From the NCBI GenBank assembly GCA_021498125.1, contig JAIZWL010000001.1, positions 837,434 to 901,433 on the forward strand: a stretch of DNA of 64,000 nucleotides, given 5' to 3'. Positions 18,374 to 40,398 of the stretch are shown one piece after another. Positions within the stretch are counted from its first letter, which is position 1. The number at the start of each line of letters is the position of its first letter. The position numbers were made by a program, and so were the translations under genes. The notes beneath the pieces were generated by a model. The model searched no databases and was not told the DNA's origin. It was given only the letters and a program-made list of their open reading frames with translations. This DNA comes from Candidatus Thorarchaeota archaeon (GTDB lineage Archaea > Asgardarchaeota > Thorarchaeia > Thorarchaeales > Thorarchaeaceae).

Positions 18374-18551
18374 GGCTCTGTGTGAAAAGTCGGTGAGGTA
18401 ATACAAAGGATTGTGACGGGTCCGACCACATCAGTGAGTTCACGCGGGTTCCGCGAACAACGTCGCGAGGTCCTGCTAAAGGTGCTCCTGCACAACATCG
18501 AGCGGCTCAACTTCCTAGAGTGTGACGGGAGGTGACTTTTCACACAGAACC
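18374..18551. mobile_element. Left terminal element (E1), 178 bp, with transposase remnant
   Basis: The terminal inverted repeats GGCTCTGTGTGAAAAGTC and GGTTCTGTGTGAAAAGTC (read inward from 18374 and 18551) match at 17 of 18 positions. On the plus strand the interior is open and ends with LLKVLLHNIERLNFLE and a TGA just before the right repeat. This looks like the C-terminal tail of a DDE transposase, so E1 is probably an internal-deletion derivative of the autonomous insertion sequence. A T-run follows the right end. Confidence 0.75.
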
Positions 18552-20124: not shown

Positions 20125-20271
20125 TAAATTTCAGGCTCTGTGTGAAAAGTCGGTAACATAGTGAGTGTGAACCAAATGAACACTATTTTCTGTTCGGATC
20201 CAAAACTCTTCGGGATTCATTCTGACTTGTATGATCTATGTCTGGACTTTTCACACAGCTCCTAAATTTCA
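20125..20271. repeat. 9-bp target-site duplication pair around E2
   Basis: TAAATTTCA occurs at 20125-20133 and 20263-20271, directly abutting both ends of the 129-bp element. This is the cleanest evidence for the size of duplication produced by this element family. Confidence 0.85.
20134..20262. mobile_element. Miniature inverted-repeat element (E2), 129 bp
   Basis: Inverted repeats GGCTCTGTGTGAAAAGTC and, from the right, GGAGCTGTGTGAAAAGTC bound a 129-bp unit with no sizeable coding capacity. The interior shares TTCGGATCCAAAACTC with the corresponding TTCGGATTCAAGACTC of the element at 40267, in the same orientation. It was inserted into the island between the solo cmr1 and the DHH operon. 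The surrounding 459-bp gap (19956-20414) otherwise holds divergent AT-rich promoters. Confidence 0.85.
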
Positions 20272-23631: not shown

Positions 23632-25281
23632 TTATCCTGTTCGGGATTTAGGCCCTTGTTCCATTGACTGGATCCATCTAGAGGTATCATTTTTTGTCTT
23701 CATCCACTTACCAGTCTCTAGATTCCAGTCATCCAACCAATTTGTGAGATTCCATGATCCCCACAATCGGTTACCCACAAGTATTGGTTTTGGACGTGGT
23801 TGCAGTCCACTAAGGGCCCTAATCAGACCGTACGTGCCCCCGGGAGGAACCTGCACACGCATAAGCAAATTCTCCTTCTGATCGTATTCAATGTTGCATC
23901 TCGGCAGTCGGAGTCCAAGAGCTGATACACAATGTACAATTTCTGGATTTTCGCTCGTGATAATGACCTCTTCAACGAGACCTATATGTTGGACATCCCA
24001 GAACTTTCGAATCACATCTAACGCTCTTAGTTTCCTTACATGCTGGATGATTGTTTCATTTCTCGATTCCAGTTGTTCTCTAAGTTCCCGGATGGTTTTG
24101 TATCCTCTCTGAAACAGGTCAAGAATTTTGAGGTCGAGTGAATCCAGTTCTAAATCTTCTGATGGTGATGAGTAGTGTATTTGTGGATATACAATTGCTA
24201 GGTCATCGCGCTGCATCATTTCAGATTCCATTTGAAGCACTCCCCAGTTGATATCCCATCGGCCTGCTTCATGGTTGTAATCATCAAAGTTCAATAGAGT
24301 AGCAGCCTTAAATCTCTCAAATATCTGGACATCTAAATTGTAAGTTCTCGCTTTATTCTTTAGAACTCCAAGATATCGGATATTTTCATAGTTGTTTGGA
24401 ATACATAATGTGGCTAGAATTCCTCCGTTTCCCGTCAGTATTGGTGCCGTTGAATATACAAAAGGACACCATCTAAGTAAAAACGAAACATCGATTTGGG
24501 AGTCTTTAGGTGGTTCGATGATAATATTGTACAACCGAATTCCGATTTTAGAGAGCACCACATATTCAAACTCAGTGAGGATATCACGCTTTTTGAGAGA
24601 TTTGATAATCTTTCTTGTCCATTGAGGAGAGTGTCTTAATCGATCAGAAATCACTTCGATAGTTTCATTAGAAGACTTCATCAGTGCATCAATCACAAAA
24701 CATTCCATCATCTTGAGGTGAGCTGAAGTATTCATAATATATCTATAGAGAAACAATGCCCAATCGTCAAAATCCGGAATAATTCTATATTTTGCCATTT
24801 TTTTAACTGAGGCGAGTAAATCCGCAAACCCTTTGGAGCCACGTAATTTTTCAAGGACTTGTAGCGATTCTTGAGGCTTGTAGGGATATCCCTTTGAGGT
24901 CTTGCGTGGTGGATTGACTTCTTTCCATTTATCAATCCAGATCTGTTCATGCTGCGAATCAATATGTTGGCGGCCATATTCCCAAGCAATATCGTCGGCT
25001 GCAATTGTATCGATGAAATCGGTGGGGATTGCATTGTACATCACTTCTCTGGCGATGACGGCTTTAAGGATTCCATATTGATCATGTGCTTTTCTGTTAA
25101 TCGCTATACTTTCTTCAACGATTGAGGTAGCAATCAGTGAGTCGATATCGCAATCATCATTGTCGATAATTTGGATTGATAATTCGTTGGTTGATACGTG
25201 CAGGTCAAACTTGTGTTTAATTTCTCCTGATAGTTCAGTCCACAACTGTTGAACGATCTCATCGATTGTGCCTATTTTCAA
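23632..25281 (-). CDS. Large winged-helix regulator-like protein
   Basis: 549 residues. Two helix-turn-helix regions are seen: about 205-235 (ETIEVISDRLRHSPQWTRKI) and about 380-425 (LDSLDLKILDLFQRGYKTIR, then HVRKLRALDVI), the second like AsnC/Lrp-type winged helices. The N-terminal 110 residues (IVEESIAINRKAHDQYGILK) hold a conserved-looking mixed region of unknown role. It directly follows the CARF-HTH gene on the same strand (21-bp gap), so the two are probably co-transcribed and may jointly regulate the island. TTG 25281 is the start. Confidence 0.6.
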   Translation of the reverse strand: MKIGTIDEIVQQLWTELSGEIKHKFDLHVSTNELSIQIIDNDDCDIDSLIATSIVEESIAINRKAHDQYGILKAVIAREVMYNAIPTDFIDTIAADDIAWEYGRQHIDSQHEQIWIDKWKEVNPPRKTSKGYPYKPQESLQVLEKLRGSKGFADLLASVKKMAKYRIIPDFDDWALFLYRYIMNTSAHLKMMECFVIDALMKSSNETIEVISDRLRHSPQWTRKIIKSLKKRDILTEFEYVVLSKIGIRLYNIIIEPPKDSQIDVSFLLRWCPFVYSTAPILTGNGGILATLCIPNNYENIRYLGVLKNKARTYNLDVQIFERFKAATLLNFDDYNHEAGRWDINWGVLQMESEMMQRDDLAIVYPQIHYSSPSEDLELDSLDLKILDLFQRGYKTIRELREQLESRNETIIQHVRKLRALDVIRKFWDVQHIGLVEEVIITSENPEIVHCVSALGLRLPRCNIEYDQKENLLMRVQVPPGGTYGLIRALSGLQPRPKPILVGNRLWGSWNLTNWLDDWNLETGKWMKTKNDTSRWIQSMEQGPKSRTG

Positions 25282-25302: not shown

Positions 25303-25953
25303 TCAGGAGTCATTTTCTTTCCAGTGTTTGGACAGCCCAAGGACAACTCGGCCAAGCTTGGTGATACATATTCCCTTTTTTTCAGATCCAGTTCTTGGAT
25401 CTTTTGTGATATATCCCCAGTCACGAAGCATATTTACGTGTCGGCTTATTGATGAAGCTCCCAACTCCATGCGAGATCCAAGATCTTTCTGAGATTCCAC
25501 ACAACCGCCTGCTTCTATCAATTTTTCAAGAATTTTCCTTTTTGGGGTTTGGAGTTTTTCTCTTTTGATAGGTTCAATCTCTCGTACTCCCTTCTCCTCC
25601 CCTTGAATCTCAATAACCAGATACAGTTTTGCGTTGATATACGCCGCAGCCATGACCAATGCGGCTGTCATCACTCTTGTTCCTAATGAAGGGTTAAATC
25701 TAATCTCCCACCCTTGATGTTCAAGAACAATTTCTAATGCAGTAGCAAGCACATCATAGTAATCCCACGGATCAACTGGTCTTAGTTCGACTGTGAACGC
25801 CTTCTCAATTTCCTCTTTTACTGCTTCTGCATTATCTTTTGTGTCTTCACTATGTAGAAGGACAAGCTTGTTCCCCCCAAAATGCCGAATGACATAGTCC
25901 ACTCTCTGTGTTCGATGAAATCCCATGCTCGCTATATGAACGACTTTCCTCAA
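25303..25953 (-). CDS. csa3: CARF-HTH transcriptional regulator (Csa3-like)
   Basis: 216 residues. N-terminal CARF domain: strand VVHIASMGFHRTQRVDYV, then LVLLHSED, and the ligand loop EIRFNPSLGTRVMTAALVMA, with the small-residue signature that contacts cyclic oligoadenylate in this superfamily. C-terminal winged helix: VESQKDLGSRMELGASSISR with the wing LRDWGYITKDPR. Csa3-type proteins act on cas gene promoters in archaea and bind cOA. Divergent from the cmr operon with the structured region between them, a likely target. Start TTG 25953. Confidence 0.85.
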   Translation of the reverse strand: MRKVVHIASMGFHRTQRVDYVIRHFGGNKLVLLHSEDTKDNAEAVKEEIEKAFTVELRPVDPWDYYDVLATALEIVLEHQGWEIRFNPSLGTRVMTAALVMAAAYINAKLYLVIEIQGEEKGVREIEPIKREKLQTPKRKILEKLIEAGGCVESQKDLGSRMELGASSISRHVNMLRDWGYITKDPRTGSEKKGICITKLGRVVLGLSKHWKENDS

Positions 25954-26687: not shown

Positions 26688-27782
26688 GTGGTTGAAAGGT
26701 TGATTATCGAAATTGAACTACTGGCCCCTACGTACCTCGGTGGTGCATATCAGCAGCCTGAGATTAGACCGTCATCAATCAAAGGGCTACTACGCTTCTG
26801 GTTTAGAGCGTTCTATCCTGATTTTCGTGAGAAGGAAGGTATGTTCTTTGGCGATGCAGGAATTCAGGGTATGTCTCCTTTTAGATTGCGGATCCGAAGT
26901 CCATCCAAGTATCGGATTTGTTATATTGGATTACAACCCGACGCAACACAATCACCTTCCTGCATCCAAGACAAGGCCCGGTTTCGAGGAATTGATTATC
27001 TCACTTTCCCGTATCAACTGAAAGATTCTAAACGAAATGCAATCTCTCCGAGGCAGCGAATTACTTTCGAGCACATTTTCTCAGAGAGAACGGTAAAGTC
27101 ATCTATGTGGGGCGGGCTCAAATTAGCATTAATTACATCTTGGTGGGGGCTCGCAGCATTAGGAGGTATCGGTGCACGATCTCGACGTGGTTTTGGTTCA
27201 TTTATGATTACTAACACTGAAAGTTCTTGGAAGCAAACAAAGATTCTATCGGCAATCTCGGAGAAGAAAGAAGTGAATTCTTGGTGGGCAGGATTTACCC
27301 GATCATTATCAAAAATTCTTAAAGCATTAGGCACACATCATTCAGATGATTTTCTTACAATTGGCTCAGGCACGAAAATTGCATTAGTTGGTAGAAATAA
27401 TCGTGGTTTCAAACAGTGGGATTCCGCACTAGACTTTTTTGGGGTCGAACTGAAACGATTTCGAAGTGGAGATACACGTGGTGTTGATTTACGTCCTGAA
27501 GAAAAGGCGTCTTTTGGACTACCAATTGCTGGCAAAACTCTTACTGTTGAAGGAAAGGAACATGTACGTGGTGCCTCACCTCTACTTGTCAATGTCATCA
27601 GGATTGGTGGTGAATATTACCTTCTTGTAACATTGACTCGCAGTCCGGTTCTCCCTAAAGGTGAACCGCTCGTCATTGAGAAAAATGGACGTACAAGAGA
27701 CTCTGCTATCAAACGTAAAGCAGTAGAGGAGTTCTTTGAAGTGTTCACATCAGACAGTCTCAAGGAGAAGACGATATCATGA
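26688..27782 (+). CDS. cmr1: Type III-B CRISPR effector subunit Cmr1
   Basis: 364-residue RAMP protein of the Cmr complex, located near the 3' end of the guide RNA. Signature segments: LLAPTYLGGAYQQPEIRPSS, IKGLLRFWFRAF, GIGARSRRGFGSF and the C-terminal HVRGASPLLVNVIRIGGE. The GTG start at 26688 is preceded by AGAGGAGATGG (26671-26681). It opens a run of genes with 4-bp overlaps: its stop overlaps cas10 by 4 bp. A distinct second Cmr1 lies at 18.8-20.0 kb on the other strand. Confidence 0.92.
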   Translation: MVERLIIEIELLAPTYLGGAYQQPEIRPSSIKGLLRFWFRAFYPDFREKEGMFFGDAGIQGMSPFRLRIRSPSKYRICYIGLQPDATQSPSCIQDKARFRGIDYLTFPYQLKDSKRNAISPRQRITFEHIFSERTVKSSMWGGLKLALITSWWGLAALGGIGARSRRGFGSFMITNTESSWKQTKILSAISEKKEVNSWWAGFTRSLSKILKALGTHHSDDFLTIGSGTKIALVGRNNRGFKQWDSALDFFGVELKRFRSGDTRGVDLRPEEKASFGLPIAGKTLTVEGKEHVRGASPLLVNVIRIGGEYYLLVTLTRSPVLPKGEPLVIEKNGRTRDSAIKRKAVEEFFEVFTSDSLKEKTIS

Positions 27783-29644
27783 AATCATTGCATATTCATT
27801 TTGGACCTATTCAGCCGTTTATAGCGAGTGCACGAACGACACGTGATCTGTGGGCAGGATCATTTCTGCTATCAACACTGTCTCTTGAAGCCCTTAGTAA
27901 AGTTGAAAGCACAGGTGCAACGATTATCCGACCACAAGTCGCCACATTAAAGGATAATTCATCAACAGGGTTCGGAGATATCAAAAAGAGGATTGGTTTG
28001 TGTCCTAATTATTTCGAGATCGAGGTTGAAGATTCTGAAGTCCAGTCCGTGGCCAATGCTGCATTTACTGGCTGGAACAACTTTTGGTCAACCGTAACAT
28101 CCAATGTTCTTGATCTTATAGAATCAAAGGTTAAAATTGACGAAACTTTTCATGAGATTTGGGATCGACAGGTCAGCAATCTATGGGAGCAATATTGGGC
28201 TGTAGGAGGATATATGCAATTACGGCGGCGTAAATCGGCTCGTTCATTTGACTATTCTGCAGAGCCTGGTGAGAAGTGCACTCTTTGTGGTAATCGTGAA
28301 GTGCTTCATCTCCAAGATGGTTCTAGACGAGGTATCCGTAGTTTTTGGTCAGATCTTTCGAAGAAACTGGGACCACATATTTTGAAACAGGACGGCGTGG
28401 AACGTCTGTGTGCCGTCTGTCTTACAAAGCGGAATGTAATGAATATACTAAGTAAACTATCAAAAGCGGATAATATTCCGTTTCCTTCAACTGCTTCGTT
28501 TGCCACGATAATATGGCGATTGATGCTGCTTTCTTCGGATAACCAAGACTTGCAGAAAGCCATAGCGGAATTTTTGAAAGCATTGAAAGATAATGGTGTA
28601 CAACCACTATCGCATTTGTGGTGTGCAAAATTAAACGGTAAAATTCCTTTATTACTGAATTATGAAGGGGACTACTTTCTCTCAGAGAGCTATGATACTG
28701 ATAAGATTCCCGATTTGACCGAATCTGCACGAAATGCTCTTCGATCGAGTTTTGCTAATTTGATGAAAGTTGTCCGTGTCGCAGGATTTGAAGACCCCCC
28801 CTCTTATTTCGCTGTTCTTTCAATGGATGGTGATGGGATGGGTCAGCTTCTGCAAGATAACCCCGATATGAAAAATGAACTCAGTGCAATCATGGCCGAG
28901 TTCGCAAAGAGTGTTCCGGGAATTATTGAAAAACAATGGGGTCGTGTTGTATATGCGGGTGGTGATGACGTTCTTGCTGTGTTGCCTCCAAGTGATGCAT
29001 TGAGAATTGCTAAGCGTGTTCGTGATAAGTTTACGGAAATTATGCAGTCACTACAAGGGTTAAAGCGTGTCCCTACAATTAGTGCAGGTATTGTCTTAGC
29101 ACCTCTAACGATGCCTCTACAAACAGTCGTCGGTAGATCACATTATCTGTTAGAAGAAATTGCCAAAGGCCACGTCGTCCCTAACTCCACTTCAACAGAA
29201 AATCCGCGAGAAAAAGATGCATTTGCTATCGAGGTATGGGATCGTGGTGGTCCTAATCTGCGTTTTGTGAAAAAGTGGGACCGTGATGAAGATTCATCGT
29301 GGGTTGATGAAATCTATGAACTGGCGGATAGACTCTCAAAGAATCATGAAGTTCCTCTAACTAACAGCTTTCTCTATTCGTGTGCAGATCTACTCAATCG
29401 GCAAGCCGTTGATGTGACCGATGCCGAAGTCATAGAGAAACTACTGACCGCAGATTATCTTCGAAGCCGTGATGAACGTATTTCAAAATTAAAAGAAACG
29501 CCAGACGGACTGGAAAAAGCTACCAAGTTGATTCATTCGCTCCTTGAAATAGCACAAGATGATACACGAAAACAGACGTGTCTTGTAGTTGATCACATAC
29601 TGATGCTTAGATTCTTCGCTAACAGTGGGAGGCTGATATCATGA
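27779..29644 (+). CDS. cas10: Cas10/Cmr2, cyclase-competent, no HD domain
   Basis: 621 residues. The protein starts at the first palm-like domain (HFGPIQPFIASARTTRDLWA) with no HD nuclease domain before it. A zinc site is formed by CTLCG (near residue 165) and CAVC (near residue 212). In the second palm domain DGDG (350-353) and GGDD (394-397, within YAGGDDVL) supply the metal-binding residues for cyclic oligoadenylate synthesis, so the signalling activity should be intact while the DNase is absent. It is the large subunit and signalling enzyme of the Cmr complex. Flanked by 4-bp overlaps. Confidence 0.95.
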   Translation: MKSLHIHFGPIQPFIASARTTRDLWAGSFLLSTLSLEALSKVESTGATIIRPQVATLKDNSSTGFGDIKKRIGLCPNYFEIEVEDSEVQSVANAAFTGWNNFWSTVTSNVLDLIESKVKIDETFHEIWDRQVSNLWEQYWAVGGYMQLRRRKSARSFDYSAEPGEKCTLCGNREVLHLQDGSRRGIRSFWSDLSKKLGPHILKQDGVERLCAVCLTKRNVMNILSKLSKADNIPFPSTASFATIIWRLMLLSSDNQDLQKAIAEFLKALKDNGVQPLSHLWCAKLNGKIPLLLNYEGDYFLSESYDTDKIPDLTESARNALRSSFANLMKVVRVAGFEDPPSYFAVLSMDGDGMGQLLQDNPDMKNELSAIMAEFAKSVPGIIEKQWGRVVYAGGDDVLAVLPPSDALRIAKRVRDKFTEIMQSLQGLKRVPTISAGIVLAPLTMPLQTVVGRSHYLLEEIAKGHVVPNSTSTENPREKDAFAIEVWDRGGPNLRFVKKWDRDEDSSWVDEIYELADRLSKNHEVPLTNSFLYSCADLLNRQAVDVTDAEVIEKLLTADYLRSRDERISKLKETPDGLEKATKLIHSLLEIAQDDTRKQTCLVVDHILMLRFFANSGRLIS

Positions 29645-30837
29645 TTCGTGCACTGAAATTTACACCTTTAGATGTATTATTTTTCAGGGATGGAACACCA
29701 TTCAATGCTGGTGAGGGAGGCGCTGTCAAATCCCTCTTTCCGCCTACCCCCTCTACGGCTTATGGTGCAGCAAGGGCATTTCTACTTGAGGCATATTGTA
29801 CTCACCTGAGCGACTATATTCGTCGAGGTTGTGGCGATTGTCCCGATTGTGAAACATGTTCAATCAAGGACATCGTCGGTCATCCAAGTAAAAGGAATGG
29901 GGCAATGGATATCATAGGACCGTATATTCGGATGGATAATCAGATGTACTTCCCTGCCCCGGTTGATCTTGGAATGAAAGAACAACACGACGCAAAAGCC
30001 CCTCTTTTCGAGACCAGAGTTCCGCGTGAACCAATTGAATGTGACTTGGGTAGTGTACGACTTCCGTCAATGCATCCTGATGTGAAACATACTCTTGATT
30101 CAAGTAACACAGTCGTTTCTGAAGAAGCATTGAAACGATATCTTGAAGGTAACACTGTCGTTAAAGAGGATGTAAAGGCTATCTGGGAATCCGTAGAGGG
30201 GCCGGGCACGCCTTCTTTAGTTTATGACGAGTTTCAAGTTGGGATTGCTATCGAACGTGATCGTCGAGCAGCAAAGGAACATCATCTTTATGCTATCAAG
30301 TTTGCTCGTCCTGTTGAAGGACTGGAACTATGGATTGGATTAGACGGAGTCACTCTGGACAAACCACCCCATAATGGAATACTGATGCGGTTTGGTGGCG
30401 AGGGGAAACGAGCTTTTGCTCAAGCAGTAGATGAGCATACTCTTCTCAAACCCGAAATCCATGGAGAACTATCGAAAACAGGCCACCTGAAAATTTTGCT
30501 GCTTCAACACGCAGATTTTGATGGTACGTGGCTGTTACCTGAGTTTGAGCAAATTACCGACGAGGATGGAATAACTTCTTGGCGGGGGAAATTGGGGGAC
30601 TTTGAAATGAATCTAATAACCGCAAGTATAGGCCGACCTGTCTATGCTGGCGGATGGGACATGGCCGCGGGGCGACCTAGGGCTTTGAGAGCTCTAGTTC
30701 CTGCTGGCAGTGTCTATTACCTAAAGATCAATCCCGAGCAAGCTGAACAAATCGTACGCAAACTGCACGGCTCGAAGATTGGTCGCAATACAAACATTGG
30801 ATATGGTCATATTGCACTAGGAGTGTGGAACGAATGA
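29641..30837 (+). CDS. cmr3: Type III-B CRISPR effector subunit Cmr3
   Basis: 398 residues. The Cmr3 opening FTPLDVLFFRDGTPFNAGEG and the segment SLFPPTPSTAYGAAR are conserved. It caps the crRNA 5' tag end beside Cas10. A cluster of four cysteines (CGDCPDCETC, about residues 61-70) could bind a metal and is unusual enough to note. The C-terminal glycine-rich RNA-binding loop KIGRNTNIGYGHIALG is present. It overlaps cas10 and cmr4 by 4 bp. Confidence 0.92.
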   Translation: MIRALKFTPLDVLFFRDGTPFNAGEGGAVKSLFPPTPSTAYGAARAFLLEAYCTHLSDYIRRGCGDCPDCETCSIKDIVGHPSKRNGAMDIIGPYIRMDNQMYFPAPVDLGMKEQHDAKAPLFETRVPREPIECDLGSVRLPSMHPDVKHTLDSSNTVVSEEALKRYLEGNTVVKEDVKAIWESVEGPGTPSLVYDEFQVGIAIERDRRAAKEHHLYAIKFARPVEGLELWIGLDGVTLDKPPHNGILMRFGGEGKRAFAQAVDEHTLLKPEIHGELSKTGHLKILLLQHADFDGTWLLPEFEQITDEDGITSWRGKLGDFEMNLITASIGRPVYAGGWDMAAGRPRALRALVPAGSVYYLKINPEQAEQIVRKLHGSKIGRNTNIGYGHIALGVWNE

Positions 30838-31739
30838 GTAGAACAAACGGAATTCTTGGGTTGTATACGGAAACATCACTGCATCCCGGAACTGGACAAA
30901 ATGTTGGATCAATCGATCTACCTGTTCGCCGGGAAAAACATACGAGGTTCCCGTTCATACCAAGCTCGAGTCTGAAGGGCGCATTTAGGAATGTTGAATA
31001 TTCGGAGGATTACAAAGAGATTCTCTTTGGTGCTGAACTTGGCAGCGCTAAGCACTTTGCTGGAGCATTGTCCGTGAGTGACGCCAGGCTGTTACTGTTT
31101 CCAGTTAGATCAATTCGGTATGGTTTCGTCTGGGTCACAACACCTTTTGTCTTGCATCGGCTGAGTCGTGATCTTCGGCTACTTGGTTTGGATGCACCTG
31201 AGTTCTTTACGAGCGAGGTTGTAAATGGAACCGCAATTGTCGGCGAGAAATTGGCCTCGAAAGACTCCATAATTCTTGAGGATATGATGTTGACAACAAA
31301 AACTGATGATCATCTGTCTGATATTGCAAAGAAGGTTGGCTCGCTTTGTTTGAAAGGGGAGGCCAACAAACCAATGCTGGACCTGCTCTTGGAAAAACTG
31401 GTCATTGTGTCGATGAATGACTTTGTTCATCTTGTACAATATGGGACAGAGGTAGTCGCCCGCAATCAGCTGAATGAGAGTAAAATCAGTAAGAATCTGT
31501 GGTACGTAGAGCTAATTCCGCGTGACAGTGTGTTCTATGTTGTTGTGAGTGCTGAAGATAGTATGCATGCTGAAAATCACAGTTCAGCGGACCTCTTTTC
31601 CACCTTTAAGGCAGCGTTTGATAGTAAATATGTCCAGATCGGTGGTCATGAAACATTAGGTCAGGGATGGTGCCTATCTACTGTAAACAGTGAAGACGAT
31701 TTGATCACGTTTCTTGGGGAATCTTCTAGGGAGGAATAG
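30834..31739 (+). CDS. cmr4: Type III-B backbone RNase subunit Cmr4
   Basis: 301 residues. Cmr4 polymerises along the guide and cuts the target RNA every six nucleotides. The motif PGTGQNVGSIDLPVRREKHT carries the catalytic aspartate (Asp28), so cleavage should be intact. FIPSSSLKGAFR and a C-terminal IGGHETLGQGW (Gly-rich loop) confirm the family. ATG 30834 gives the 4-bp overlap with cmr3; the open frame starts 9 nt earlier at a GTG. Confidence 0.94.
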   Translation: MSRTNGILGLYTETSLHPGTGQNVGSIDLPVRREKHTRFPFIPSSSLKGAFRNVEYSEDYKEILFGAELGSAKHFAGALSVSDARLLLFPVRSIRYGFVWVTTPFVLHRLSRDLRLLGLDAPEFFTSEVVNGTAIVGEKLASKDSIILEDMMLTTKTDDHLSDIAKKVGSLCLKGEANKPMLDLLLEKLVIVSMNDFVHLVQYGTEVVARNQLNESKISKNLWYVELIPRDSVFYVVVSAEDSMHAENHSSADLFSTFKAAFDSKYVQIGGHETLGQGWCLSTVNSEDDLITFLGESSREE

Positions 31740-31742
31740 ATT

Positions 31743-32177
31743 TTGTCGAACGGAGTCCGGTTAACTCTTGAGCAAGAAGAAGCAAAATTTGCGTTAGAAT
31801 GTATCGAGAAAGTAAAAGACAATATATTGGAGATTACAAGTAGTGAAAGAGTACAAATAAAATCATACCCCAGTGATTATCATCGATTTGCCAAGCGTCT
31901 TCCAGCTATGATTCTCAATAATGGACTAGGACCTACATTAGCGTTCATTAAAGCATCATCAGAAAAAGAGAATGACTCTAGCAAGGCAGCAGCTGCGATT
32001 TATTCCCATTTTACCCATTGGCTATGTAAATCAAGGCAGGTCTATCCCGAGGATAAAGATCTTCTCAAGAGCATTGTAAGCACCGAGATGTATACCTATT
32101 TTGAAGCACAAGATCTTGCACTTAGATTGGCAACATGGTTGTCTCGACTTGCTGATGCGTATCTTCCTAAGGAGTGA
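31743..32177 (+). CDS. cmr5: Type III-B small subunit Cmr5
   Basis: 144 helical residues, the usual size of the Cmr small subunit that lines the target-binding groove. FAKRLPAMILNNGLGPTLAF is the family's hallmark stretch. The start is TTG at 31743, with GGGAGGA about 8-14 nt before it. It follows cmr4 by 3 nt and is followed by cmr6 with a Shine-Dalgarno inside its end. Confidence 0.9.
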   Translation: MSNGVRLTLEQEEAKFALECIEKVKDNILEITSSERVQIKSYPSDYHRFAKRLPAMILNNGLGPTLAFIKASSEKENDSSKAAAAIYSHFTHWLCKSRQVYPEDKDLLKSIVSTEMYTYFEAQDLALRLATWLSRLADAYLPKE

Positions 32178-32182
32178 TAAGA

Positions 32183-33004
32183 ATGAAACATTTCGCAATT
32201 TACGAGTCAAAAAAAGTTTCAGAATTAATAGAATCCCCCGGAGGAAAAATAATAAATAATGCGGGTCTTTTCTTTGAAAGATATCCCTTGCTCTGGACAT
32301 ATAACGATTCTATTAGTGATTCTGATAAACCAGAAAAGACACATGATTCACTATCTAATAAATTCTTTAAACAGGTTATGTGGGCATTACGACATGCTGA
32401 GATTCATGACCAGTTGCGTATTTACCATAACCGGATTTCGACCATGGTACATACAATAGGTGGTCACTCGTTTGAACTGACGACAAGAAGCCGATTTGTT
32501 ACAGGTCTGGGTGCAACACATCCTTCAGAAACAGGTTTTAGGTGGGATCATAATCTTGGAATCCCTGTTATCCCTTCATCATCGATTAAGGGAGTGTTAC
32601 GGACTTGGTACAGGGACTATTCTCACGATTCAGATATTCTCGAGTGGCTTGGACCTGAACATAGTCCTGGAAACGATTCATCATCTGCGGGAAGTCTCAT
32701 AATATTTGATGCAATTCCTCGAATCGAAAAGAAACGGTCAATCTTGAATTTGGATATTATGAATCCACATTATAGTAAGTATTACTCAAATCCTGAGAAG
32801 AATCCACCTGCTGACTATTATTCACCAGTACCCATTTTCTTCTTGACTGTTGCTCCTAATACAAGGTTTTCGTTTCATATAGCGCCTCGTCCGAATTGCG
32901 CTGTCGATTTAGGCAAGGTCGAGTCTACAATTCACGAAGCATTAGAGACAATCGGTATTGGTGCAAAGACATCTGTTGGATATGGTCAGTTTATATCCCG
33001 GTAA
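32183..33004 (+). CDS. cmr6: Type III-B effector subunit Cmr6
   Basis: 273 residues. RAMP protein near the guide 3' end. FVTGLGATHPSETGFRWDHN and IPVIPSSSIKGVLRTWY are the Cmr6 signatures, and IGIGAKTSVGYGQF is the final glycine-rich loop. ATG 32183 is preferred over GTG 32174, as AAGGAGTGA (32169-32177) stands about 5 nt before it. The last gene of the core Cmr set; the helicase gene follows after 13 bp with its own AAGGAG. Confidence 0.92.
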   Translation: MKHFAIYESKKVSELIESPGGKIINNAGLFFERYPLLWTYNDSISDSDKPEKTHDSLSNKFFKQVMWALRHAEIHDQLRIYHNRISTMVHTIGGHSFELTTRSRFVTGLGATHPSETGFRWDHNLGIPVIPSSSIKGVLRTWYRDYSHDSDILEWLGPEHSPGNDSSSAGSLIIFDAIPRIEKKRSILNLDIMNPHYSKYYSNPEKNPPADYYSPVPIFFLTVAPNTRFSFHIAPRPNCAVDLGKVESTIHEALETIGIGAKTSVGYGQFISR

Positions 33005-33017
33005 GGAGTTATCGACT

Positions 33018-35891
33018 ATGGTAGGAGTAAAACGTATACGTCGTCGTGATTCGGATTCAGCAAAGCCCGAAAGGAATCACAGTTATGAAATAGACCCTTC
33101 CCAACTTGAAGCCTCTATTTTGGCCTATAGAAACCTACCAGAAGTCGATAGTGATCAAGCCTGTTACCACTTGATGAAACGAGTATCAGTAGGTCTCGCG
33201 GATATCTCCCGATACCTTGAACACTCGATTAAAAGTTATGAGTATTCAAGCCTATTCATTCTTGTTCAACAATTGAATACTAGAGTTGGAGATCATATTC
33301 TAAAGAACTATCCCAATGCCCGCTGGTGTAAAATTATCAAAACCGTTCCAAAAGGAAAAAAGAAGGCTCAATCTGTTCTACGTAGAGGTAAAACTTTACT
33401 CAGTCCTACTGAAGTGCCTGACGTTGAACCGTATATGGAAAAATTACCTTCGTCTGCACCTGATGAAGTAATTAATATTGTCCGAAATCAGGGCAATGAT
33501 GAAAATGGATTTTTGGGATACCCTGTTGAAGTTTTAGATCTCCGATTCAATGCCCTTCTTTTATCTTCTGCACCTAATACTCGAAGACGTAATGAAAAAT
33601 TCTGGGTCTGCTATATTCCTTCAGCATATTCATTGCGTAGATATCGTGATGCGGTCAATAATTTAATACACTCGCCAACAAACAATTTACGTCCACTTCT
33701 TAACTTATTTGAACGACGTGCATATGCTCAGTGGCCAGACTTCAAGCTAGTCAGAATCAACGATTGGCTATTTCTCACAGATCCAGATATTGGATCTGAA
33801 AATCCTTTTGAAGACTACGAAGACGATTGGGATTATCTGGACGATGGCTATCATGATGAACGGAGTTCTACGAGTGAGGCTCGAAATCCGTCAACATCTG
33901 ATCAACGGAGATTTGTTCGGCTTGCACTGAGTACGCCAGATTTTGGATTGCTATGGGGTCCACCAGGTTCAGGTAAGACCTACACCATCATGGAGCTAAT
34001 TTTTCAGGCTGTAAAACGTGGTTGGCGTGTTTTGTTCTGCGCCTCTACTCATGTTGCTATTGATCAAGCGCTTGAACGCTTACTTGCTAACAAAGATGCA
34101 ATGAAATATATTGTACCTCTACGGATTGGAGATTCTGAAAAAATCAGTGATTCCATTAGAGAATATAAACTTGCACGAATTAGTTCCAAGTATCGCCAAG
34201 AAATAATGGATGATCTCCGCAAACAGCCCTCATTAACAGTTTCTCAGGAGAGATGGTTAAGTGCTCTCGGTTCCAAAGATGGAAATTATTGGATGGAACG
34301 TACTCTACTAGATTCTGCTAATCTCATTTGTGGGACAACCGTTGGGATTCTTCAGCATCCCGAAATTCGTAGAGGCGATTGGTTTGCACACAAACCAATG
34401 TTTGATTTACTGATAATTGATGAAGCTAGCAAGACCACATTTCATGAATTCCTCATTCCTGCTCACTTTGCTAAACGTTGGATTCTTTGTGGGGATCCTC
34501 GTCAGCTTTCTCCGTTTGTAGACGATAATAGCATCCAAATGTCAATTAAATCTCTGATTAGAGACGATTGGAAGCGTGAATGCTGTTATGACGTTTTCAA
34601 GGCGATCACTTATGAGAAAACGCAAATAGTTGTAATTAGTGATGATGAAGAGGTAAAGGCGGGGTATCTGACTCAGGTCGAGGCAAAAAATGATTCAGCC
34701 GAAAACCAAATAATATCTATTATTAACATTACTGAGGAACCAAAAAATAATGATGAATGGTTAAAGATTCTTGGTTCTCAGATTATTATTTGCAGCATAG
34801 ATTTAGCACCAATTCTTGGTCGATATCTTCCAGGATCTGTAGATATCATTCGTGGAAACCCCAAACTTTTGGGATCGAAATTCATGGCTAGATATGAATA
34901 CATGCAGCAAAGCGGAATGTCAAGGGAAATTGATGATACGTGGGACACTCTATTATCACGATATATGGGTTTTGAATTCTACACAAGAAACACTAAGGAC
35001 GGATCTTTTGAGAACTATAGAGCAAAGAAAGAATTGCTATTGCCCGAATTTGATGGCAATTCGGATGAAGATTTAGATGATGACGACATCAGTAAAAAAA
35101 CACGTCAACAGTTTGAGCGCAAGTTGGATCGAATTAGAATATGTGCGTATCCTAGTGTATTGGAACTACTGATTGAAGGATTTCGTCCTGAAAGTGAGTA
35201 TGATAGCACATTGAATAAGGGATTTCCTAACGATGTTAAAAAAAGGAGATTAATAAAATTAAAGTACCAGTTTCGTATGCATCCTGAAATATCAGCATTT
35301 CCCCGTAAACAAATATATGATTCGAGTCAACTTCGTGATTCACCGGATATTTCTCAGAGGCGAAAGTGGAGCTATCCCGGCTACAGTTCAAGGGCACAAT
35401 GGGTTGAAGTCAATGGGATTTGGAGTGACGACGTTAACAATGAAGAGATCTCGCAATTATTATCTGAACTTTCCAAGTTTGTAAGATGGACCTCAGACAA
35501 TCCGCGTGATGATGGGCGAAAGTGGGAGGTGGCGATTCTATCATTTTATTCTAATCAGGTACATGCAATACTCGAGCGTATTATTAATGATTCAAAACTG
35601 AATCAAGAGGGTGCCACTGCTTTTTCAACAAAAAATGTTCATGTATTAGTGGGGACTGTGGATAGCATTCAAGGTAGAGAGGCAGATATTGTGTTCATTA
35701 GTTTTGTGCGTAACGGAACACGTGGTGTTGGATTTATTGAGAATCCCAACAGATTGAATGTTGCATTGACGAGAGCGAGATATCAACTCGTACTGATTGG
35801 GAATCGGACTTACTTTTCGAAACAAAAGCGATCTGCACTACTGAGAGAATTATCTAAACTGGAATCCGATTTGACTTATGGGGCTGATTAG
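33018..35891 (+). CDS. SF1 (UPF1/DNA2-like) helicase
   Basis: 957 residues. The first 290 are an unknown, charged N-terminal region. Then come helicase motifs: Walker A GPPGSGKT (314-321), motif Ia FCASTHVAIDQALERLL, Walker B LLIIDEASK (Asp468-Glu469), motif III CGDPRQLSP, motif IV-like KYQFRMHPEIS, motif V VDSIQGREADIVFISFVR, and motif VI NRLNVALTRARYQLVLIG. This is the UPF1/DNA2 branch, acting on RNA or DNA. An acidic, variable insert separates motifs III and IV. ATG 33018 is supported by AAGGAG (33003-33008). Co-directional with cmr6, so it is likely on the Cmr transcript. Confidence 0.9.
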   Translation: MVGVKRIRRRDSDSAKPERNHSYEIDPSQLEASILAYRNLPEVDSDQACYHLMKRVSVGLADISRYLEHSIKSYEYSSLFILVQQLNTRVGDHILKNYPNARWCKIIKTVPKGKKKAQSVLRRGKTLLSPTEVPDVEPYMEKLPSSAPDEVINIVRNQGNDENGFLGYPVEVLDLRFNALLLSSAPNTRRRNEKFWVCYIPSAYSLRRYRDAVNNLIHSPTNNLRPLLNLFERRAYAQWPDFKLVRINDWLFLTDPDIGSENPFEDYEDDWDYLDDGYHDERSSTSEARNPSTSDQRRFVRLALSTPDFGLLWGPPGSGKTYTIMELIFQAVKRGWRVLFCASTHVAIDQALERLLANKDAMKYIVPLRIGDSEKISDSIREYKLARISSKYRQEIMDDLRKQPSLTVSQERWLSALGSKDGNYWMERTLLDSANLICGTTVGILQHPEIRRGDWFAHKPMFDLLIIDEASKTTFHEFLIPAHFAKRWILCGDPRQLSPFVDDNSIQMSIKSLIRDDWKRECCYDVFKAITYEKTQIVVISDDEEVKAGYLTQVEAKNDSAENQIISIINITEEPKNNDEWLKILGSQIIICSIDLAPILGRYLPGSVDIIRGNPKLLGSKFMARYEYMQQSGMSREIDDTWDTLLSRYMGFEFYTRNTKDGSFENYRAKKELLLPEFDGNSDEDLDDDDISKKTRQQFERKLDRIRICAYPSVLELLIEGFRPESEYDSTLNKGFPNDVKKRRLIKLKYQFRMHPEISAFPRKQIYDSSQLRDSPDISQRRKWSYPGYSSRAQWVEVNGIWSDDVNNEEISQLLSELSKFVRWTSDNPRDDGRKWEVAILSFYSNQVHAILERIINDSKLNQEGATAFSTKNVHVLVGTVDSIQGREADIVFISFVRNGTRGVGFIENPNRLNVALTRARYQLVLIGNRTYFSKQKRSALLRELSKLESDLTYGAD

Positions 35892-36984
35892 AACGATGGC
35901 GAGTAAATCAATACAATTCAAGAGAAAAATCACTATAGAAAAATGGAGCGTCAATTTAACACTCAAAGAGTATGTTGATAATCCGATCTGGTTAGCAATT
36001 CTCGAATTAGCATATGAACATAAGCGGCATGTTACTCCGGCTATTTTGCATACCCAACTGTTGAAACGAAAGCTTCCCATAAAATCTGCTAAGCTGCTTA
36101 TTGAACGTCTTGTCGAATTAGGGCTCTTGGACAACAAATATAAATTAACGGAAGAAGGACTCGAAACGTACGAGTCCAAGAGAATCCCGGATCCGCAAAC
36201 AGGAACATATACTATCAAATTTGCAAGAGATTCCCTTCTCCCTCAAATTATTGTGGACTGCGAAGGACCATTCCCACCACGCTTTGACAAACGACGGATT
36301 AATAAAACACAAATTACTACGGATGAAATAGATACGTTGTTGTTTGATACCATCGGGAAGACAATAATTGTGGGTGCGTCCTCAAAGCCTATCCAAATTA
36401 TGGAGGTTAAAGAAAGAGGAACTAAACTCGATACTGAATATGCAACCCTTCAGCTGATGTATTATCCGGACAAGTCGCCAGAATTATTGTTAATTCAATC
36501 TGATTCAAAAGGTATCAACATGCCAATACCCAAGAAACTGGCCTCGCTAAAATTTAAAGAAATTTGTAATATAGTTTATTCACAAATCAATGGCTGGGAT
36601 AGAAAGACCGAAAAAGTGTTAGTACCATTCAAAGGCCTCGAACCATCAGAACGACGAACGTTTAGAAAGAGATTCACTATCAAAAGGCCTACTATACCAG
36701 ACTATGGGACATTTAATAGCGTTTTAACTCCGCCTCTAAATATCGAGCCTCAATCATCAGCGGATGCCCAAGAATGGATTGATTGGTATATTGAAGATCA
36801 GTTGCCACCAACATATCTTCGTAGTCAAACCTATGCGAAGTTCATTACAAAAGTAAAACACACTTTTCCGACACGTTATGATGTTACAATACCAGATCGT
36901 CATACTCTGGCGAGAAAATTGATGAAAACTAACCGCACTAAAGGATGGTTGCTTCAAGCACCCATTGATCTATTGTTGAGGTGA
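35878..36984 (+). CDS. Unknown protein with N-terminal winged-helix-like domain
   Basis: 368 residues, overlapping the end of the helicase gene by 14 bp; ATG 35896 is an alternative start. Residues about 30-100 (NPIWLAILELAYEHKRHVTP to ERLVELGLLDNKYKLTEEG) look like a winged helix. A middle region (IIVDCEGPFPPRFDKRRINK; LFDTIGKTIIVGASSKPI) has no recognised motif. Its position between a helicase and a nuclease suggests an adaptor or target-recognition role; not established. Confidence 0.6.
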   Translation: MGLIRTMASKSIQFKRKITIEKWSVNLTLKEYVDNPIWLAILELAYEHKRHVTPAILHTQLLKRKLPIKSAKLLIERLVELGLLDNKYKLTEEGLETYESKRIPDPQTGTYTIKFARDSLLPQIIVDCEGPFPPRFDKRRINKTQITTDEIDTLLFDTIGKTIIVGASSKPIQIMEVKERGTKLDTEYATLQLMYYPDKSPELLLIQSDSKGINMPIPKKLASLKFKEICNIVYSQINGWDRKTEKVLVPFKGLEPSERRTFRKRFTIKRPTIPDYGTFNSVLTPPLNIEPQSSADAQEWIDWYIEDQLPPTYLRSQTYAKFITKVKHTFPTRYDVTIPDRHTLARKLMKTNRTKGWLLQAPIDLLLR

Positions 36985-36989
36985 ATTAA

Positions 36990-38489
36990 ATGACTCTGCC
37001 ATTTGAAAAGAAATTTACATACCATGTTGACAATAGTGACAAGACTGTAACCTCAGCATGGTTCGGACGTGAAGTAAAGTCTTGGGAAATTGATTTGCAG
37101 TCACGGGTACTTATGGGTGGGAAGAGCGGTGGATCTCTAAAACGAAAAGTTTTGGAAATTATAACCAAGTCTAAAGAAGTCATTGCACTCTGCTCATTTA
37201 TTCTGGGTGACAAGGAAATCATTGATGCATTAATGGATGCTGCTGGTCGAGATGTACGTGTATATATTTTGACTGCATCAGAGCAAAGACTACGACAATC
37301 CATGTCTAACGATCCTGATGACTTACAGGAACGAATGAGAAAAGAGCACGAATCTATGTTGGATTTGCTTGCTGGAACCGTCTTGCTTAGAGATGCAGAA
37401 ACACATGCCAAATTCATTATTTCTGATTCAAAGACCGACAATCGTATGGGTGTTCTTTCTACAGCCAATTTTACAACTGAGGCCTTTGAACATCCCGAGT
37501 TAGGAGTGGTTCTAAACAATGCAGAAATATCCCATCTCTACAAGATTTTTGTTTCTGCTTGGTGGACTTTAGCAGAGCATGAACTACTTGGTAAAAAACG
37601 TTTGAATAACATCCGACCTATTGTGCCCCCTATTGATGATGATGTAGACAGATTGATTTCTCAAATTGGTTCCTTTAGGATAACATTTCCCCACCGCAAG
37701 ACTTCCCTGCGTGAAGAAATCATACGACTGATTCGAGAGAGTGCTACAACTATTTACATTTCAACCTACGGAATCTCAGACGATGACGATGAAGTATATA
37801 CACAGCTTGAAGATGCTCTAGCATCGGGTAAATCAGTAAATCTTCTTATCCGACCTAGGGCAAAAACGACTCCGATTGTAGAACGGCTCGTACGTAAAGG
37901 CGCAGAAGTCAGAGGCCTAGACTGGTTGCATGCAAAAGTAGTTGTTTCGGATACGGTCAAAGGTGTGAATGCTCTGATAATGACCGCTAATCTTGAGAAA
38001 ATTAGTTTGCAGGATGGATATGAGGTGGGTTTCATCCTGCCGAAACGTCATGCAGTTACACTCTTGAAGATTATAAAACATTGGTGGGATAATGCGAATT
38101 GGGACTACGCTCTATCAAGAAGGTATCGTGACTGCGTAGGAAAGTATATGATTTTTCATAATGGCCAACCTGAACAACGTACAATCAAAAAGAAGCGTGT
38201 CGTAGATCTTGGTGAAATTGCCCTAGCTGACCTTGCGGATTATTATTCGTTCAGACCTAATTTTCCTGAAACAAATGATGCCATTGCGGTGACGTATCAA
38301 TGGAAGATTACTCCACCAATTCTACCCTCAATATGCAAGCCAATTACTGATTCTAAATATCCACATCTATCACTATGGGAGCGGAAAAAAGGGAAGTTGT
38401 ACATTGCCATTAAATCAGAGAAGGAACTCAAAGAGGTGTTGAGTGTTGATCGTCCTCCAAATGCTAAAATTGTACTTCATACCGAGTAA
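36990..38489 (+). CDS. Double-HKD phospholipase D-family protein (likely nuclease)
   Basis: 499 residues with two PLD-type motifs: HAKFIISD (His139) with STANFT, and HAKVVVSD (His314) with MTANLE. Both have H-x-K and the following Asn, so a complete bilobed active site can form. In defence islands such soluble PLD proteins act as nucleases (for example DrmC-type). The start is ATG 36990 with GAGGTGA just upstream. It is the last gene of the plus-strand cassette; a C-terminal region of about 120 residues is unassigned. Confidence 0.85.
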   Translation: MTLPFEKKFTYHVDNSDKTVTSAWFGREVKSWEIDLQSRVLMGGKSGGSLKRKVLEIITKSKEVIALCSFILGDKEIIDALMDAAGRDVRVYILTASEQRLRQSMSNDPDDLQERMRKEHESMLDLLAGTVLLRDAETHAKFIISDSKTDNRMGVLSTANFTTEAFEHPELGVVLNNAEISHLYKIFVSAWWTLAEHELLGKKRLNNIRPIVPPIDDDVDRLISQIGSFRITFPHRKTSLREEIIRLIRESATTIYISTYGISDDDDEVYTQLEDALASGKSVNLLIRPRAKTTPIVERLVRKGAEVRGLDWLHAKVVVSDTVKGVNALIMTANLEKISLQDGYEVGFILPKRHAVTLLKIIKHWWDNANWDYALSRRYRDCVGKYMIFHNGQPEQRTIKKKRVVDLGEIALADLADYYSFRPNFPETNDAIAVTYQWKITPPILPSICKPITDSKYPHLSLWERKKGKLYIAIKSEKELKEVLSVDRPPNAKIVLHTE

Positions 38490-38665: not shown

Positions 38666-39700
38666 CTAACGGTTGAGCACAATTGCCATCCGACTCAACC
38701 ATCCACTATCGTCCTTGTTTCTAGTTGATAGCCGAAGACTTTCAGTATCCCAGCTCTCACCTTTTTTCCCCTGCCAAATCCCTTCGATAACAATCCATTG
38801 AGATTTACTCCACCGTAGTCTGATGACTCCCATTTGAACTGCAAGAACATATAGTAAATCACAGAGGTCGTTCCAATGTGCACTGAATCTTTGATTAGTA
38901 AGTTGTTGCCGATCCAATCGAACCGCCATTATCTCTTGGTTAACACATTTGCTCACAAAGTCTGTGTCCTCACTAATTGCAAGAATATCGATTCTATTTT
39001 GTTGTGAATGGCGTGCAAGGGCATTGATAATTTTATCATCTGAAACGGCAGAGGTTATCCTTACACACCTTGGACTTGCTCTCATCTTTTTTGATTCAAC
39101 ATCCCCGAGTCGGAAAATTCTGTCCTTTGTCGCAAGCTGGTTCGTGAAATTTCTAAAATTATACCAATCTACTGAAAACAGTTTTTGCAAATCTACAATA
39201 TCCCTATTTCGATATTTTCTATCGTATTTTTTTATCTCATCTATTATCCCTGTTGTAATAATGTATCTGGCTCCACCAGTTCTAAGTAATTGTTTTTTAC
39301 TTTTTATAGATCGTTCGAGAATGCTATAGTATCGCCGATTCAATGCAACTGTGTCAAAGGCAATCCAACAAGGTTTTTCTCCACTATAGACATCTCTTGA
39401 AAGAGCCTCTTCTACCTTCTTTAGCAGTTTATCCCATCCTTGTGGATTGACTACTCCTGATGAAAACAAAGCCTCAGTAACCTTTGCATGTTTAAATTCG
39501 TATTTTTGAGCGTTTTTTGTAAAGTCCTCAGGTGATACTGTTTTTATTATTTCCGCAGTTGGTTTGTTGCGTGAAATCTTTATTTCAAAAAGTGGTGCAA
39601 TACTAAACGGAGTATCAATCTTGAATTCTATGACTTCATTAGATGCCATCCAATTCAATATAGCTATTAATTTTGGAGCCGCCAACTGTACATACTTCAT
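38666..39700 (-). CDS. PIN-like ribonuclease paired with a CARF protein
   Basis: 344 residues. The first third is a mixed domain without known motif. From about residue 107 a PIN-like core appears: an Asp in CWIAFDTVALNRRYYS, an acidic pair in ITTGIIDEIKKYDRKY, then SDDKIINALARHS and ILAISEDTDFVSKC supply the further acidic residues expected of a PIN active site. It starts in a 4-bp ATGA overlap with the CARF gene before it. By analogy with CARF-linked effectors it would be an RNase controlled by cyclic oligoadenylate; sensor and nuclease here are separate chains. Confidence 0.65.
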   Translation of the reverse strand: MKYVQLAAPKLIAILNWMASNEVIEFKIDTPFSIAPLFEIKISRNKPTAEIIKTVSPEDFTKNAQKYEFKHAKVTEALFSSGVVNPQGWDKLLKKVEEALSRDVYSGEKPCWIAFDTVALNRRYYSILERSIKSKKQLLRTGGARYIITTGIIDEIKKYDRKYRNRDIVDLQKLFSVDWYNFRNFTNQLATKDRIFRLGDVESKKMRASPRCVRITSAVSDDKIINALARHSQQNRIDILAISEDTDFVSKCVNQEIMAVRLDRQQLTNQRFSAHWNDLCDLLYVLAVQMGVIRLRWSKSQWIVIEGIWQGKKGESWDTESLRLSTRNKDDSGWLSRMAIVLNR

Positions 39701-40200
39701 GTTGTGACCCCCCTCTTAAAGTCAACAAGCTTCACGAATGCTTCGGGGATTAGAGGATAGTCTCGATTTGTATATGCATCGTCTAAAAGGTGAAGGTAAA
39801 ATATCGACTCGACGTTTTCGGAAATTCCGACTTTGAGACCTATTGCTGAAGCAAATTTACGTCCGGGAGTAATATCAATGACGCGCGGTTTGTTTGAATG
39901 TGCATGTACCTCTTTCTGAAACTTTTCTGCAAAACCGCTGTAATCTATTTCGTTGCACACTTCAACACTCAGACGGATTGACAAATCATATGCTTCATTG
40001 AATTTCTCTAGCCACTTCTCAAAATTGGAGAACGCCAAGTCAAGTTGATCGATGATTCTTTGCTTTCCGCTTTCCGGAATCAATCTAAATAAAATAATCT
40101 TGTTTGGTTGCCAGTTGTATTTAAGGTATGCCGCCCATATTGTATTAAGAACCGCATGTGGACTTAATCCAATTGTAGTAAACCAATACCCCTCTGTCAT
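39697..40200 (-). CDS. CARF-domain sensor protein
   Basis: 167 residues from ATG 40200, chosen as AAAGGAG is 8 nt upstream; the longer open frame runs into the right terminal element and so is not native. The fold fits a CARF domain: first strand and loop FTTIGLSPHAVLNTIWAAYL, then KIILFRLIPESGK, and the ligand loop VIDITPGRKFASAIGL, matching D-x-T-x-G-x-K-x-x-S of cOA sensors. There is no effector domain in the same chain; the PIN-like protein overlaps by 4 bp. The promoter may be affected by the adjacent terminal element. Confidence 0.75.
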   Translation of the reverse strand: MTEGYWFTTIGLSPHAVLNTIWAAYLKYNWQPNKIILFRLIPESGKQRIIDQLDLAFSNFEKWLEKFNEAYDLSIRLSVEVCNEIDYSGFAEKFQKEVHAHSNKPRVIDITPGRKFASAIGLKVGISENVESIFYLHLLDDAYTNRDYPLIPEAFVKLVDFKRGVTT

Positions 40201-40266: not shown

Positions 40267-40398
40267 GGCCCTGTGTGAAAAGTCGATGAATGTGTATGAA
40301 TCCTCTCGACCTGTATCACATGGTGCATTCGGATTCAAGACTCCACATACATAGTTTGCATTGATCCGTTCATGACTACAGACTTTTCACACAGATTC
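40267..40398. mobile_element. Right terminal element (E3), 132 bp
   Basis: Inverted repeats GGCCCTGTGTGAAAAGTC (from 40267) and GAATCTGTGTGAAAAGTC (from 40398 on the other strand) bound a short non-coding unit. The interior shares TTCGGATTCAAGACTC with E2. Its own two flanks do not match each other; its outer flank GTAGGTCTC instead matches the outer flank of E1, making E3 the right end of the 22-kb element. Confidence 0.8.

Follow-up and report, generated by a model that had tools for sequence, protein, structure and literature searches.

Gene identities and context of the locus

The window analyzed here, a stretch of 64,000 nucleotides from a Candidatus Thorarchaeota archaeon (assembly GCA_021498125.1, contig JAIZWL010000001.1, positions 837,434 to 901,433 of the forward strand), is part of a 1.55 Mb contig within a genome of 3.1 Mb. 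Immediately behind its type III-B CRISPR operon cmr1 to cmr6 it carries three consecutive genes, in the following referred to as the trio, encoding a helicase (HEL), a winged helix-turn-helix protein (wHTH) and a nuclease of the phospholipase D family (PLD). An earlier note, prepared from the window sequence alone, had placed a helicase gene, a gene for an unknown winged-helix protein and one for a PLD protein with two HKD motifs after cmr6, and all three were found to be present and intact:

33018..35891, + strand: UPF1/SETX-like superfamily 1 (SF1) helicase (HEL); all motifs intact, N-terminal extension of about 290 amino acids, insertion of about 250 amino acids between motifs III and IV
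35896..36984, + strand: winged-helix adaptor-like protein (wHTH) of about 362 amino acids; ATG at 35896 preferred to that at 35878
36990..38489, + strand: double-HKD PLD-family nuclease; both HKD halves intact (H139/K141/D146 and H314/K316/D321)

HEL contains the motifs GPPGSGKT, DEAS, GDxxQLSP, QFRMHPE, VDSIQGREAD and NRLNVALTRAR and matches the Pfam families AAA_11 (7e-33) and AAA_12 (5e-36). Its nearest solved structures, by profile as well as by fold, are UPF1, SETX, SEN1 and IGHMBP2, and its predicted structure includes low-confidence stretches within the N-terminus. This region of about 290 residues had been described as novel. For the window protein the description holds insofar as the profile of MkoA, the helicase of the Mokosh type I defence system, was matched at the helicase core only (from residue 294), but in a bacterial family member the residues before the helicase core can be aligned to the corresponding stretch of the same profile.

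Profile scans of the window proteins assigned wHTH to no curated family. A fold search with its high-confidence model (predicted local distance difference test score 86) returned no global match in the PDB, only local similarity to helix-turn-helix (HTH) domains of the MarR/MecI type. HEL starts 13 bp behind cmr6 (stop at 33004, ATG at 33018) and PLD 5 bp behind wHTH, as had been stated previously. The overlap claimed between helicase and wHTH depends on the start codon: relatives of wHTH align from the second ATG (35896), leaving a gap of 4 bp after HEL, and the start at 35878 would overlap it. The genes surrounding the trio are as follows:

26688..33004, + strand: Cmr1-Cmr6 operon (type III-B), identified by profile matches
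38666..39700, - strand: PIN-like nuclease half of a split CARF+PIN pair; homologues adjoin the trio at loci L025, L026, L029 and L030 and lie behind cmr6 at L067
39697..40200, - strand: CARF_m1-type CARF protein; the open reading frame (ORF) opens at 40338, relatives align from the ATG at 40200
25303..25953, - strand: Csa3/CARF3-like CARF-wHTH regulator upstream of cmr1; stays with Cmr in a sister genome (L065), and related CARF-wHTH genes adjoin other trios
23632..25281, - strand: HTH protein partner of the CARF regulator; likewise beside the Cmr operon at L065

The CARF_m1 and PIN-like genes jointly match the PADLOC profile CARF_PIN, split over two genes. Cmr2, the Cas10 protein of the operon, has the cyclase motif GGDD at residue 394 and lacks an N-terminal HD domain, as judged from the protein beginning directly at its Cmr2_N region.

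Distribution and inheritance of the trio

In order to evaluate how widely the trio occurs, the wHTH protein was taken as search probe, because no curated family covers it. In total, HEL, wHTH and PLD were found together in the same order at about 34 loci in two domains, of which the window alone has cmr genes adjacent. All frequencies refer to sampled genomes. The wHTH probe detected the trio in 14 of 228 Asgard genomes. Trios from Thermoplasmata and Bacteroidota/Chlorobi were added by a PLD-profile scan of a contig collection representing each of 84,980 species by one genome, a non-exhaustive search with one peptide pattern. Seven of 390 sampled Thermoplasmatota genomes were positive (four clear and three partial or divergent matches; locus L046 comes in addition), as were two of 396 Bacteroidota genomes, seed genome included. 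Furthermore, plasmids of Vibrio aerogenes, V. rumoiensis and Pontibrevibacter (Rhodobacterales) carry the same gene run together with a sigma54 regulator. Viral contigs scanned with a single wHTH sequence gave no match.

Practically every locus on a sufficiently long contig shows the order HEL, wHTH, PLD, the genes overlapping or being separated by a few bases, and wHTH lies between the other two genes in every complete locus. The first gene of the bacterial operons, just before HEL, encodes a conserved protein of about 97-110 amino acids with a weak DUF4258 match (L041 4826-5119, L043 4803-5105, L045 4664-4954, L053 4637-4969). The trio recurs far more often than chance would produce. Phylogenies of HEL, wHTH and PLD have 14 of 24 splits in common, and their distances are correlated (Mantel r 0.75-0.83, with none of 2000 permutations reaching such values); the three trees agree, and the trio therefore travels as one unit. 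Moreover, Asgard, Thermoplasmatota and plasmid sequences are intermixed in the HEL tree, the deep forks of which are weak; this mixed topology suggests horizontal transfer.

CARF genes and further partners of the trio

The strongest new fact about the trio is its company. CARF genes are its most consistent partners, a link absent from the earlier note. They occur near all 13 archaeal loci that encode an active PLD and have adequate flanks (the window, G078, G139, G172, G173, G184, G198, G210, L040, L046, L080, L081 and L082; G numbers denote genomes). Of the 23 CARF3 matches in trio genomes, 11 are found no further than about 12 kb from the trio, compared with 0.18 expected, and such proximity was recorded in 8 of 12 genomes (P about 4e-13); these counts were made by hand with one CARF profile and hence undercount other CARF types. 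Asgard trios repeatedly have genes for a CARF_m1 protein and a PIN-like protein as neighbours, and in Thermoplasmatota a CARF protein and a NYN/Zc3h12a-like RNase are encoded directly 5' of HEL.

Among the bacterial loci, 8 of 12 encode an activator of the RtcR/PspF type (CARF-AAA-HTH) directly after PLD, the hosts being Nonlabens, Chlorobi, Tenacibaculum, Oceanihabitans and the three plasmids. This gene was identified by PADLOC at L041 (5e-103), by Pfam at L043 and by alignment at L045, L053, L054 and L056; at L047 and L055 its presence is deduced from position and length, for L055 also from annotation. A WYL-HTH gene takes its place at L052. An element resembling a sigma54 promoter, TGGCA-N8-G, precedes the first gene by 40-54 bp in four of six independent RtcR lineages (P about 3e-5, relative to the rate at the respective locus), and a strict scan for GG-N10-GC yielded one convincing site, at L041. 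Such an element upstream of the bacterial operons is suggestive only.

Viperin is a further recurrent partner. It is encoded directly 5' of HEL in G149, G172 and G173, and one gene further upstream in G078 and G865. Five of the eight viperins in 21 trio genomes adjoin the trio (P about 6e-12). The corresponding genes upstream of HEL are:

L025, 6462-7355: viperin
L027, 375-1259: viperin
L030, 13066-14013: viperin
L007, 1676-2650: viperin, with a gene for an amino-acid-kinase-fold protein between it and HEL (G078)
L083, 3244-4206: viperin, with an AAA ATPase gene between it and HEL (G865)

In genome G122 (L008 9830-16001 and L009 58-5725) an RNase III-like protein, a PAZ-PIWI Argonaute, HEL, wHTH and a PLD-like protein devoid of HKD residues are encoded on one strand. 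The HrAgo1 operon of 'Ca. Harpocratesius repetitus' comprises rnc, Argonaute and a helicase (PMC11217426), and the order of these genes is the same in G122, where the helicase is of the HEL family and is followed by wHTH. That publication names a helicase and rnc alongside Argonaute; in G122 the HKD-less PLD-like protein is present as well. The G122 locus thus appears to be the published operon, the helicase of which would then belong to the HEL cassette family. A related RNase III-like gene with a weak match to the double-stranded RNA-binding domain was observed at L029 (12099-13199), starting 17 bp after PLD.

HKD-less PLD proteins were found in two lineages (L009 of G122, and L083/L085 of G865/G947), and these loci look like a second subtype. 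IetA-like AAA ATPases are encoded near the trio in G122 and G865, and an IetA-like ATPase or a homologue occurs near L009, L083 and L031. Furthermore, a reverse transcriptase of the AbiP2 type (PADLOC 1e-209; L079 381-1919) is encoded 59 bp upstream of a trio HEL.

Proposed lifestyle of the cassette and alternative readings

Based on gene content, distribution and neighbourhoods, it is proposed with fair confidence that the trio represents an autonomous, horizontally moving, CARF-controlled antiviral cassette of helicase, adaptor and nuclease, which in this genome was captured behind a Cmr operon. The analysis establishes the identity of the genes, their intact catalytic motifs, their inheritance as a unit, their independence from Cmr and their association with CARF genes; defence function, substrate, complex formation, control by CARF proteins and ligand we infer by comparison of sequences. 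The UPF1-like HEL would engage, thread or remodel invader nucleic acid, most likely RNA or single-stranded DNA/R-loops. The wHTH protein may act as an adaptor or nucleic-acid-binding subunit coupling HEL to nucleic acid or to PLD, and PLD would cut the invader nucleic acid. Regulators of the CARF family, of the Csa3-like CARF-wHTH type in archaea and sigma54 activators of the RtcR/PspF type in most bacteria, could hold the cassette under ligand-sensing control and raise its expression on infection; in archaea, pairs of CARF protein and PIN/NYN RNase are encoded alongside. The window cassette, placed between CARF genes, lies 13 bp behind cmr6 and is therefore probably co-expressed with a cyclase-type Cas10 predicted to make cyclic oligoadenylate, a plausible signal for this copy.

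Several observations weigh against this proposal. CARF regulators were not seen in three Bacteroidia loci (L050, L051 and L079), the HKD-less loci have no CARF neighbours, and proximity of genes is no proof of control. The TGGCA-N8-G pattern was defined post hoc, after inspection, and the -12 half of the element often reads TTGA, not TTGC. Many loci are situated on contigs of metagenome-assembled genomes (MAGs) with short, truncated flanks. Cas10 is detectable in 9 of 23 trio genomes, several of which are incomplete MAGs; cyclic oligoadenylate therefore cannot be the general signal.

The most probable alternative regards the trio as a divergent Mokosh system, acting like type I (the helicase finds foreign transcripts and PLD destroys them), having lost the kinase and gained wHTH, with no special role for CARF proteins. 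Both have a UPF1-like helicase of the COG1112 type beside a PLD nuclease in a defence context; MkoA is the best PADLOC match of HEL (3.5e-82), MkoB matches PLD (7e-11), and the PADLOC-verified type I loci used as controls, from Rhizobium, Oscillatoria and Anabaena plasmids, are helicase-PLD pairs. However, MkoA carries an N-terminal serine/threonine kinase domain: the Oscillatoria and Anabaena proteins cover profile positions 5-1108 with kinase matches, whereas no kinase match was obtained for the window HEL, which scores about 275 bits over the helicase core only, compared with 849-923 bits over the whole profile for true MkoA. The controls have no gene between MkoA and MkoB, whereas the conserved wHTH gene separates HEL from PLD, and coupling to CARF or RtcR-like partners, found in two domains, is a feature of the trio. 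In a quick tree with long outgroup branches, a branch supported at 100% in the Shimodaira-Hasegawa-like approximate likelihood-ratio test (SH-aLRT) separates 28 HEL proteins from four MkoA and other UPF1-like helicases, and a tblastn search of plasmids returned three cassette helicases at 1e-110 to 1e-122 ahead of the next match at 5e-18. Missing kinase, separate clade and gene order rule out membership in Mokosh; the trio works like Mokosh at most, and is not a member. This alternative is regarded as unlikely.

Two further known systems share single features with the trio. CoCoNuT loci combine RtcR-like CARF sensors with UPF1-like helicases (PMC11090510), and types II and III resemble the trio in these components and in the logic of nuclease-based defence; the nuclease of the trio is PLD, and a scan covering the window genes and a selection of neighbours recognised neither a McrB-like GTPase (CnuB) nor a McrC-like CnuC. 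DISARM, which the earlier note had chosen for comparison, turned out to be the wrong nearest neighbour. PLD does match DrmC profiles (2e-27 over one HKD domain), but the DISARM helicase is a YprA-family/DUF1998 protein (PMC12458937) and HEL is a UPF1-like SF1 enzyme as in Mokosh, which rules out membership on helicase family; DrmB or a methyltransferase was not recognised among the window genes scanned. The assumption that the three-gene set is not a known one is borne out, since no described system with exactly these genes was found in PADLOC 2.0.0, NCBIfam 2026, Pfam or searchable open-licence papers.

It had also been suggested that the trio extends this Cmr complex and destroys target DNA or RNA instead of the missing HD nuclease. 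The HD-less Cmr2 and the position of the trio 13 bp behind cmr6 on the same strand agree with this idea. Moreover, the window resembles cyclic oligoadenylate signalling of type III CRISPR systems in its flanking CARF regulators and split CARF/PIN pair and in the GGDD motif of its Cas10, and Csa3 is known to bind cyclic tetra-adenylate (PMC8844856). Most trio loci, however, have no adjacent cas genes, many trio genomes have no detectable Cas10, and none was detected in G007, the closest trio relative. Cmr genes were found beside no trio other than that of the window. Three sister genomes of the same family (G009, G014 and G015; L065-L067) carry the same Cmr1-6 operon and no trio, and in G009 the two upstream regulator genes of the window accompany Cmr. 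The regular association with cas10 effector operons that marks a type III accessory set was not found. Neighbourhoods and sister operons largely rule out a Cmr accessory as the general role, and the idea is regarded as very unlikely. Since the trio occurs elsewhere without cmr and sister Cmr operons lack the trio, the window copy was most probably acquired behind a Cmr operon that already existed.

The least probable reading is an RNA-damage response, in which broken RNA ends are sensed by RtcR-like or CARF proteins, and the helicase-PLD pair that these switch on disposes of damaged RNA instead of killing viruses. CARF and PIN/NYN RNase genes adjoin archaeal trios and HEL is UPF1-like, but a defence role is indicated by the rare, patchy distribution, by carriage on plasmids and by the presence of viperin, Argonaute, AbiP2 and Cmr nearby.

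The autonomous CARF-associated cassette is preferred, in agreement with one of the two suggestions of the earlier note, a separate defence system: it is distinct, probably defensive and recurs without Cmr. More tentatively, and as a possibility that is somewhat in doubt, the trio may represent an undescribed cross-domain immune system in which differing CARF sensors (Csa3-like in archaea, RtcR-like in bacteria) gate one HEL-adaptor-PLD effector, in Asgard archaea within operons shared with viperin, Argonaute/RNase III or Cmr. If true, a single effector cassette would tie together several components ancestral or related to the antiviral immunity of eukaryotes.

The proposal would define a rare three-gene antiviral cassette common to archaea and bacteria and tied to CARF sensing via different regulators in each domain. 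Culturable Vibrio and flavobacteria would then allow direct tests of which signal switches on UPF1-like defence helicases. The proposal would also account in part for the surroundings in which an Asgard Argonaute operon and several Asgard viperins are found. Caution is advised in profile-based annotation, which may label cassette helicases as Mokosh.

Two minor observations concern the genome of the window. Another contig (G000:C9:86800-98928) carries cas1 and, at a distance of about 11 kb, a further CARF-wHTH gene. Furthermore, a near-identical 23-nt repeat (GGCYCTGTGTGAAAAGTCG) occurs in the window at 18374-18396, 20134-20156 and 40267-40289. Two of its copies flank an ORF region near 18.4-20.3 kb in the manner of insertion-sequence ends, and the third copy stands alone, 5' of the ATG at 40200, where the promoter of the CARF/PIN pair is likely to lie.

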